Positions 13,524-17,135 of a stretch of DNA of 46,186 nucleotides are shown here, in pieces. The position numbers were made by a program, and so were the translations under genes. Position 1 is the stretch's first letter. Each line of letters opens with the position of its first letter. This stretch comes from a virus. The notes under the pieces are model-generated. The model worked only from the letters and a program-made list of their open reading frames with translations, had not been told where the DNA came from and ran no database searches. The stretch covers positions 1 through 46,186 of IMG/VR virus record IMGVR_UViG_3300032560_001113. One strand, 5' to 3'.

Positions 13524-13600
13524 TGGTGCTGAAGAAAGGACTCGAACCCTCAACCTTCGCATTACAAGTGCGCTGCTCTACCAATTAAAGCTACTTCAGC
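13524..13600 (-). tRNA. tRNA-Thr (TGT)
   Basis: Acceptor GCTGAAG/CTTCAGC, anticodon loop CTTGTAA on CGCA/TGCG, T-loop TTCGAGT, discriminator A, CCA encoded. The upstream endonuclease stop lies at positions 8-10 of the tRNA. Confidence 0.92.
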
Positions 13601-14226
13601 AATTTAATTATTTCATTCCAACATAGTTGGTTCTTATTCAAGATTAACACTTTAATCTTATTTTGATCACAAACTTTATTTATTTTTTCTTCATCAGAAA
13701 ATCCTAAACTGGGATTATTGTTATTGATCAAATAATCGTTTTTTGGGTCCAAATATATATTATAATCAATCAAATACATATCTGGAGTATATGTTCTATG
13801 CTTACCATTTCTATCAACATAATTAAATTTTTTACAAGTATCCCATCTTATATTATTCTCGTCTAATGATTGTGCAACAATCAATTCATATGTTGAACCA
13901 AGAATTTTATCTTTATATCTTATTCTTCTAGATTGTGAAACGCCACCCAATCCTCTTTCTTTAGCAAGCTTACTCATCTTTATTTTTACAGATTCTGTTT
14001 GACCTCTTTTTCGATTTGTATCAGCTATTCTTTCTAAAGCTTCTTTGGATATTTTAGGTTTTTGTAAACCTAATTCTTTAGCCTTTTTATATTGATTAGA
14101 ATGTTTTCTGATGCTAAAATCATAAATTCTAATTTTACGATCGGGATTTAATTTACACATTCTTTGATGATTTCTCAAAGAATTATTATTTTTACATTCT
14201 TTATTACAAAAAGTACAAAGTAGCAT
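13591..14226 (-). CDS. Zinc-finger homing endonuclease, PD-(D/E)XK-like
   Basis: 211 residues. The N-terminus LLCTFCNKECKNNNSLRNHQRMC is split as CxxC ... HxxxxC, a zinc finger. A basic middle with repeated short helices (NUMOD-like) follows, then GSTYELIVAQSL and a catalytic region YTPDMYL ... YLDPKNDY that fits a PD-(D/E)XK site with DPK as the last element. Similar genes are scattered through T4-like phages as homing endonucleases. A late promoter lies 28 bases upstream, overlapping the end of RNA-B. The last 10 bases lie inside tRNA-Thr(TGT). A related C-terminal remnant is at 10511-10657. Confidence 0.7.
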   Translation of the reverse strand: MLLCTFCNKECKNNNSLRNHQRMCKLNPDRKIRIYDFSIRKHSNQYKKAKELGLQKPKISKEALERIADTNRKRGQTESVKIKMSKLAKERGLGGVSQSRRIRYKDKILGSTYELIVAQSLDENNIRWDTCKKFNYVDRNGKHRTYTPDMYLIDYNIYLDPKNDYLINNNNPSLGFSDEEKINKVCDQNKIKVLILNKNQLCWNEIIKLLK

Positions 14227-16269: not shown

Positions 16270-16353
16270 TGGTGCCGAGAGTAGGATTCGAACCTACCGT
16301 GTTATAAACGTCCGATTTACAGTCGGGTGCCCGGCCACTTAGGCGGTCTCGGC
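16270..16353 (-). tRNA. tRNA-Tyr (GTA)
   Basis: 84 nt, class II with a long variable arm. Acceptor GCCGAGA/TCTCGGC, anticodon loop CTGTAAA on CCGA/TCGG, T-arm GTAGG/CCTAC, CCA encoded. Confidence 0.93.
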
Positions 16354-16456: not shown

Positions 16457-16532
16457 TGGAGGACCCACTCGGATTCGAACCGAGAACCTAGAGATTAAAA
16501 GTCACTTGCACCACCAATTGTGCTATGGGTCC
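16457..16532 (-). tRNA. tRNA-Lys (TTT), first tRNA of the block
   Basis: Acceptor GGACCCA/TGGGTCC, anticodon loop CTTTTAA on AGTGA/TCTCT (one T-T mismatch), T-arm CTCGG/CCGAG, discriminator T, CCA encoded. Confidence 0.92.
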
Positions 16533-16537
16533 AACAC

Positions 16538-16713
16538 ATTAAGCTCTGACGACTCTTTTTGTTCAGATCAAGGACATCTGTCCAGCTTAATAATTGTTTC
16601 TTCGTCAGCGTCACGAATACGCTTGTTTCGAGCAAGCCCTTCGGATTCAAGGTCACGACGTTCTAAAGAACTAATACTCGTGACGCTGACGAAGAAACAA
16701 CCGAAGTTGTTTC
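16538..16713 (-). ncRNA. Structured leader of the tRNA transcript (RNA-C) with a two-state hairpin
   Basis: This lies in the 318-base gap before tRNA-Lys(TTT). A perfect 23-bp inverted repeat (16594-16616 with 16678-16700) encloses three small hairpins (GCTTG/CAAGC, CCTT/AAGG, GTTC/GAAC), giving a cloverleaf-like fold. A second hairpin, GAAACAAC with GTTGTTTC closed by a UUCG loop (16694-16713), uses the same bases 16694-16700, so the two cannot coexist fully. A third domain is closed by ATTAAGCT/AGCTTAAT (16538-16545 with 16584-16591) and holds GGACA/TGTCC. A promoter lies about 45 bases upstream. No ORF is present. Confidence 0.65.
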
Positions 16714-16751
16714 AACGTAATTCCTAACAATGTCAAACAGCCTATAAACTT

Positions 16752-16780
16752 ATATTATCTTAGGAGCGATTTAAAGTCAA
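16752..16780 (-). promoter_or_regulatory. Sigma70-type promoter of the tRNA block
   Basis: TTGACT (16775-16780), 17 bp, TAATAT (16752-16757). Predicted start near 16745, upstream of RNA-C and tRNA-Lys(TTT). Confidence 0.72.
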
Positions 16781-16798: not shown

Positions 16799-16826
16799 AA
16801 AAAAGGCGGGGATTTCGCCCCGCCTT
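16799..16826 (-). terminator. Rho-independent terminator
   Basis: AAGGCGGGG pairs with CCCCGCCTT (16803-16811 with 16818-16826) across a 6-nt loop, followed by a T run on the - strand. It separates the HTH gene from the tRNA promoter. Confidence 0.85.
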
Positions 16827-16850: not shown

Positions 16851-17108
16851 TTAGACGAGACCAGCCGCAATAGCCTTGTATCCTGCGGCGATAACTTGGC
16901 GTGACGGTGTACCGAAACGGTACTTGTTTTTTACCACGCCTTTAGAATTCGTATGCTTATTACAGTAAATCGGATACCCTTCCATACGAAGAGAGTATAC
17001 AACATCATGTGGATTAGCGACGTTATAACGAGCAGAAATCTGCTTAGCAGTAAGCTCTTCGCCGTTAAGGACCAACGCTGTATATACCTTATCAATCTTT
17101 GAATTCAT
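16851..17108 (-). CDS. Small helix-turn-helix protein
   Basis: 85 residues. The segment VYTALVLNGEELTAKQISARYNVANPHDVVYSLRMEGYPIYC reads, in pieces, as a winged helix-turn-helix: a turn after LNGEELTA, a recognition-like helix in NPHDVVYSLRMEG and a C-terminal wing containing NKYRFG. Similar 80-100-residue proteins occur in many T4-like and rhizobial phages. A DNA-binding regulatory role is inferred. I chose the ATG at 17108 because CAGGAG lies seven bases upstream. It has its own strong promoter at 17136-17164 and its own terminator, so it is a monocistronic early gene. Confidence 0.7.
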   Translation of the reverse strand: MNSKIDKVYTALVLNGEELTAKQISARYNVANPHDVVYSLRMEGYPIYCNKHTNSKGVVKNKYRFGTPSRQVIAAGYKAIAAGLV

Positions 17109-17135
17109 TCTTTTCTCCTGTTTCATTATTTAGTC

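Follow-up and report, generated by a model that had tools for sequence, protein, structure and literature searches.

The 46-kb IMG/VR viral record IMGVR_UViG_3300032560_001113, of which all 46,186 nucleotides were analysed (hereafter the window), belongs to a T4-like phage that encodes a clamp loader, a regA-type regulator and head proteins. It carries about two dozen tRNA genes on the minus strand, in a block that ends at position 10398. The features around the head of this block, and the protein gene just beyond its last tRNA, are listed below in minus-strand order.

16851-17126: upstream 91-aa gene
16803-16826 (-): intrinsic terminator of the upstream 91-aa gene (9 pairs, 7 of them G-C, with a T tail)
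16752-16780 (-): predicted sigma-70-type promoter of the tRNA operon, TTGACT-17-TAATAT (9 of 12 consensus matches)
16730-16741 (-): boxA, GCTGTTTGACAT, with a conserved extension, TGTTAGGAA, reaching to 16721
16706-16713 (-): arm A (GAAACAAC) of an apparently transient UUCG hairpin, pairing with strand B, with covariation in relatives
16694-16701 (-): strand B (GUUGUUUC), both the 3' arm of that hairpin and the start of the long helix
16674-16702 (-): leader (5') strand of the 29-bp helix
16621-16673 (-): payload of 53 nt, with hairpins at 16660-16671 and 16638-16652 and a T-arm-like one, GCTTG-CTCGAAA-CAAGC, at 16621-16637
16592-16620 (-): trailer (3') strand of the helix, its end being A' (GAAACAA, 16594-16600)
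16533-16591 (-): second structured spacer, ahead of the first tRNA and closed by ATTAAGCT/AGCTTAAT (16538-16545 with 16584-16591)
16457-16532 (-): tRNA-Lys (ttt), the first tRNA of the block
8532-9965 (-): Ro60/TROVE-fold protein of 477 aa (phrog_850, DUF2828/DUF7788), just beyond the last tRNA

Because a promoter is predicted at 16780-16752 and the upstream gene has its terminator at 16826-16803, transcription is predicted to start upstream of the whole element. Two tRNAs, at 10656-10726 (-) and 16273-16353 (-), were detected by the Rfam tRNA model and not by ARAGORN. Three endonuclease-like ORFs, two of them HNH, lie between tRNAs (11753-12265, 12601-12924 and 13591-14226 (-)), as expected for homing genes. 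An imperfect 24-nt inverted repeat (79%; 10119-10142 / 10361-10384) was also seen between the Ro60-like gene and the last tRNA, where it adjoins a predicted promoter.

The long helix and the competing hairpin

The earlier note had described a 23-bp inverted repeat, a UUCG hairpin and seven bases shared by the two, and its coordinates were all correct; the transcript is the minus strand. The plus-strand sequence TTGTTTCTTCGTCAGCGTCACGA at 16594-16616 has its perfect complement at 16678-16700, and no further copy with up to 3 mismatches was found in the window. No perfect inverted repeat in the window is longer: its 23 bp compare with a mean of 11.7 and a maximum of 15 bp in 60 dinucleotide shuffles, and a chance repeat was rejected on these grounds. 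With G-U pairs included, the helix grows to 29 bp (16674-16702 with 16592-16620).

The stem element as a whole (16594-16700) gave a folding z of -9.3, and the hairpin GAAACAAC-UUCG-GUUGUUUC at 16694-16713 has a predicted energy of -7.9 kcal/mol (z -4.6). The seven bases common to the hairpin and the long stem are those at 16694-16700. In the minimum-energy structures of growing transcripts the hairpin is present from about 50 to 148 nt and is then replaced by the long stem, and forcing the A:B pairing over the whole leader costs 5.9 kcal/mol. Given how much more stable the long helix is, the hairpin has the look of a transient structure and not of a regulated one.

The three small hairpins that the note had placed inside the long stem are indeed predicted, but taken alone they are no more stable than shuffled sequence (z +0.38) and should not be over-read in the window's sequence taken singly. 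Part of the payload (16647-16658) is a partial copy of the trailer strand at 16605-16616 (TCAAGGTCACGA, 83%) and could base-pair with the leader strand while the trailer has yet to be transcribed. No Rfam family matched within the element above its curated gathering score. Matches to microRNA precursors were sub-threshold (31.7 versus 150 bits), of a kind generic to any long hairpin, and were discarded.

Relatives and the predicted exchange of pairing partners

Searching 50,697 phage records by blastn detected no sequence relatives of the element in named phages. Relatives were found in environmental viral contigs, through the neighbouring 91-aa and 233-aa proteins, hairpin patterns and the motif upstream; a DNA pattern of the hairpin only was abandoned, having returned mostly unrelated chance hairpins. 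Fifty distinct elements were kept and three doubtful ones left out. The kept elements head tRNA blocks and have the same anatomy in different letters, the order promoter, boxA, helix, payload, helix and tRNA recurring across the 50. Their helices have 19-29 pairs (median 23), in which the first bases are kept in a few versions and the upper part varies freely, with abundant compensating partners. The enclosed payloads measure 27-151 nt and fall into 25 sequence groups, and boxA stands 19-29 nt from the helix, or 65-75 nt where there is an extra hairpin. One payload was found in chassis with different ends (L335 versus L119, L166 and L345); therefore, chassis and payload have been exchanged between phages. 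Some relatives (L009, L029, L229) carry two or more cassettes in tandem. In L009 a second cassette occupies the position of the window's second spacer, at which relatives may hold another helix-enclosed RNA.

Two further features of the relatives were observed. In place of the A:B hairpin loop, some of them have about 50 nt that contain additional hairpins (GGGGATTC..GGATTCTTACCCCATCGTGGGTGTAAC; L319 at 3300 (-), L325 at 4027 (-), L313 at 7318 (-) and L335 at 3801 (+)). In many, the cassette is followed by a second conserved RNA (L028, 3593-3800, and 22 variants elsewhere), whose ends pair (CTTATTAGGTGTGGTGTTATGG with CCATAACATGACATCACTCCTAATAAG) and which matched no Rfam family.

The comparison bears directly on the relation between the hairpin and the helix. 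Across 20 distinct triples, 136 of 140 A:B cells and all 140 B:A' cells were paired, compared with means of 120.6 and 124.2 and maxima of 132 and 136, respectively, in arm shuffles that ignore relatedness. Both pairings are kept in chassis of quite different letters, for example GAGATAAC/GTTATCTC/GAGATAA, AAACATCG/CGATGTTT/GAAACATC and ATAAGTCT/AGACTTAT/AATAAGT. Arm A also varies by G-U steps that are absent from A' (GAAGCAA, GGAATAG-type), and is therefore not merely a copy of A'. Because A, B and A' change together, both of the mutually exclusive pairings appear to be under selection. The layout of a co-transcriptional switch, which the earlier note had read from the window, is thus supported by the comparison, with both pairings above the shuffle maximum. 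Such a three-strand exchange would provide a compact natural model for strand displacement during transcription, and nature supplies many variants of it.

That covariation conserves two mutually exclusive structures would also suit on/off control of the tRNA block by a transcription attenuator or a riboswitch, and attenuation of the block was among the roles previously suggested. We found no support for such control: neither the window nor its relatives have a U-run behind the hairpin, no terminator-like site was found at the element, and in 45 of the 50 elements the 8 nt that follow strand B contain only 2-3 T. Given also the greater stability of the long helix and the energetic cost of keeping A:B paired, we rejected a terminator at this site and regard an attenuator as very improbable.

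A feature acting at the level of DNA, such as a cruciform or a recombination or homing site, could account for a perfect inverted repeat, for the exchange of cassettes between phages and for endonuclease-like genes inside the tRNA block. We consider this reading, or a repeat arisen by chance, hardly credible, as the repeat lies far beyond its shuffles and its orientation is fixed with respect to boxA and the tRNAs. Counted on the transcript strand, the helices also contain 124 G-U cells against very few A-C ones, an excess that only leans against a DNA feature because the finder counts G-U as pairs.

boxA and the resemblance to rRNA-operon leaders

Absent from the earlier note was boxA, which points to the most likely role of the element. 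GCTGTTTGACAT at 16741-16730 is the only exact copy in the window and lies 10 nt below the predicted -10; the corresponding upstream motif common to the elements is typically GCTGTTTGACATTGTTRGAA or GCTCTTTGACATYGTTRGAA. GCTGTTTGACAT matches boxA as it occurs in the rRNA operons of Alphaproteobacteria. A search of the genome collection with GCTSTTTGACATYGTTRGAA gave 10 matches, two of them immediately upstream of 16S rRNA in Robiginitomaculum; three more were in contigs of other Alphaproteobacteria that break off within 16S-leader-like sequence. The 15-mer GCTGTTTGACATTGT was found at 16 sites in 385 alphaproteobacterial genomes, six located 181-372 nt before a 16S start and two behind a 16S 3' end (8/16), with four more in 16S-leader-like sequence at contig ends. 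Judged by the letters of boxA alone, the host of the phage may be an alphaproteobacterium.

In viral contigs, the extended boxA 20-mer was present at 55 sites, many of them in mutually related contigs. A same-strand tRNA followed within 1.5 kb downstream at 39 of these sites, none had tRNAs on the other strand only, and at 32 a promoter was found with its -10 ending 7-21 nt upstream. A boxA of the window's type was not detected near the tRNAs of T4, DLP6, Cr30, phiM12, HTVC008M or Melnitz, and a search for long helices in the tRNA region of DLP6 returned a single 16-bp stem at its far end. Because named T4-like phages with tRNA clusters (T4, DLP6, Cr30 and phiM12) lack it there, this boxA is not generally required. 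In the open-access library searched, we found no description of such a boxA in phage tRNA operons. As a separate and weaker observation, a gamma-type boxA, GCTCTTTAACAATTT, stands before tRNAs in other phage contigs at 11 of 122 sites, versus 7 with tRNAs upstream; it lies close before tRNAs in L424, L437, L417, L511, L434, L396 and L443, in some of which a promoter is found just upstream.

In the window, boxA heads the tRNA block close below the predicted promoter and is followed by the leader strand of the covarying long helix. On sequence comparison, the element is a real, conserved structured leader, built like that of an rRNA operon, and we estimate at about two in three the probability that it serves as an rRNA-operon-type leader driving the mostly untranslated tRNA operon of the phage. 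The structure, the covariation, the identity of boxA, its position and its orientation are the observations on which this reading is based.

The boxA of an E. coli rRNA operon precedes by 18-19 nt a boxC that is within the leader strand of the helix; this leader-trailer helix has to be longer than 17 bp and coincides in part with the RNase III site, and boxA is thought to tether the leader to the polymerase until the trailer has been transcribed (PMC10250234). The phage element shares with these operons a promoter, a boxA (here of alphaproteobacterial letters), a short spacer, a helix leader strand of more than 17 bp, an enclosed structured RNA, a trailer strand and stable RNAs downstream. The likeness rests on boxA, promoter and helix, boxB and boxC not being among the matched features. 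Unlike its rRNA counterpart, the phage leader encloses a variable RNA of 27-151 nt rather than rRNA, feeds tRNAs, and has a conserved hairpin that competes for the leader strand. It also resembles the nut sites of lambdoid phages, in that a phage-borne boxA for antitermination lies near a promoter, but here boxA is of the host rRNA type and precedes tRNAs, and neither an N-like protein nor a boxB was identified.

According to the model that we propose, the transcript would start with the host-type boxA, to which host NusB-S10 would bind, together with NusA, NusG and SuhB, and modify RNA polymerase. The modified polymerase could then transcribe the roughly 6 kb of tRNA DNA without terminating early. 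Strand B, some 27 nt after boxA, would first be held in the local A:B hairpin, until the trailer strand, emerging about 100 nt later, drives out A and closes the 29-bp leader-trailer helix. As in pre-rRNA, this helix would enclose the payload RNA, which is exchangeable between phages, would aid its release and would be the likely site of RNase III. Binding of Nus factors, antitermination, the order of folding in the cell, cleavage, and the stability and function of the released RNA are the parts of this model that we infer. In another context, Nus factors can favour Rho termination (suhB, PMC5725501). If the model is correct, some phages secure the expression of a large tRNA operon by copying the boxA and the leader-trailer design of host rRNA, and the letters of boxA become a clue to the host as well.

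The enclosed RNA and the Ro60-fold protein

The protein encoded at 8532-9965 returned nothing in a sequence search of the PDB and was matched only by comparison of folds. With a structural model of moderate confidence (pLDDT 73), Foldseek retrieved a Trove domain (9.8e-9) and D. radiodurans Rsr (7.5e-7), and VIA-align gave a Z of 16.7 against the Ro60 of Thermus phage phiLo. In many viral contigs the Ro60-like family is found near tRNA clusters, with at least 5 tRNAs at 56 of 80 loci.

The Y RNAs bound by Ro60 proteins pair at their ends and combine a conserved lower stem with a variable loop (PMC4726728), and YrlA has a tRNA-like domain (PMC7790460). The helix-enclosed RNA could accordingly be a Y-RNA-like partner of the phage protein, its conserved lower stem binding the protein, its variable and sometimes tRNA-like loop doing the work, and the boxA leader merely expressing it; this reading can coexist with that of an rRNA-type leader. 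In its favour, a TROVE/Ro60 fold is encoded at the far end of the same tRNA block, a DUF2828 gene is present in 10 of 17 element-bearing records, and the paired ends with conserved letters, the conserved lower stem and the variable loop recall those of bacterial Y RNAs and of YrlA with its Ro60 (Rsr). A T-arm-like hairpin was found in 6 of the 25 payload groups, the window's included (shuffle mean 0.5, maximum 3). U-U mismatches recur in the helices of relatives, at position 9 in 21 of 49 and at position 12 in 26 of 49, and could mark a protein site, but the helix of the window is perfectly paired there and is free of the bulges of the vertebrate Ro60 site. The phage element further differs from bacterial Y RNAs in that the Rfam YrlA model found no match in it, in being headed by boxA and in occurring as tandem cassettes in some relatives. 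The gene lies 6.6 kb from the element and is common in phages (681 records), and most of the loci fetched by it had no such element within 10 kb. On balance, we see a Y-RNA-like partner as the main rival to the leader reading, possible but doubtful. Since the region also encodes the Ro60-fold protein, binding could be tested directly.

The T-arm-like hairpins also bear on the earlier suggestion of a tRNA mimic, which they support in part. With the tRNA covariance model (RF00005) run on 13 loci of relatives, no match was seen inside the elements, and weak matches to the tRNA-Sec model were obtained. A stand-alone decoy, in which a double-stranded or tRNA-like mimic absorbs a host RNase or a tRNA-cleaving defence and payload diversity reflects an arms race, would fit the T-arm-like parts and a single chassis carrying 25 payload groups that are swapped between phages. 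It leaves unexplained boxA, the conserved competing hairpin and the fixed place before the tRNAs, and we judge it improbable.

Joining the rRNA-type leader to the Y-RNA idea, a group of T4-like phages may have made of the copied rRNA front end, with its inbuilt transient hairpin, a fixed platform for exchangeable small structured RNAs, which would be co-expressed with the tRNAs, processed from the helix and loaded onto the Ro60-fold protein as Y-RNA-like guides or decoys against host RNases. We put this forward tentatively, as a rather unlikely extension of the leader reading.

T4 itself offers a precedent for small structured RNAs at a phage tRNA cluster, its species 1 and 2 RNAs (rnaC and rnaD), the function of which is still unknown (PMC9697503). 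The T-arm of T4 rnaC reads CCGGG-TTCGAAT-CCCGG. Unlike the element described here, rnaC and rnaD lie at the 3' end of the T4 cluster and have no sequence similarity to it, and no boxA, long end helix or competing hairpin was found there. The hypervariable payloads, in a setting that they share with the T4 species 1 and 2 RNAs, would represent a new set of non-coding RNAs in phages.
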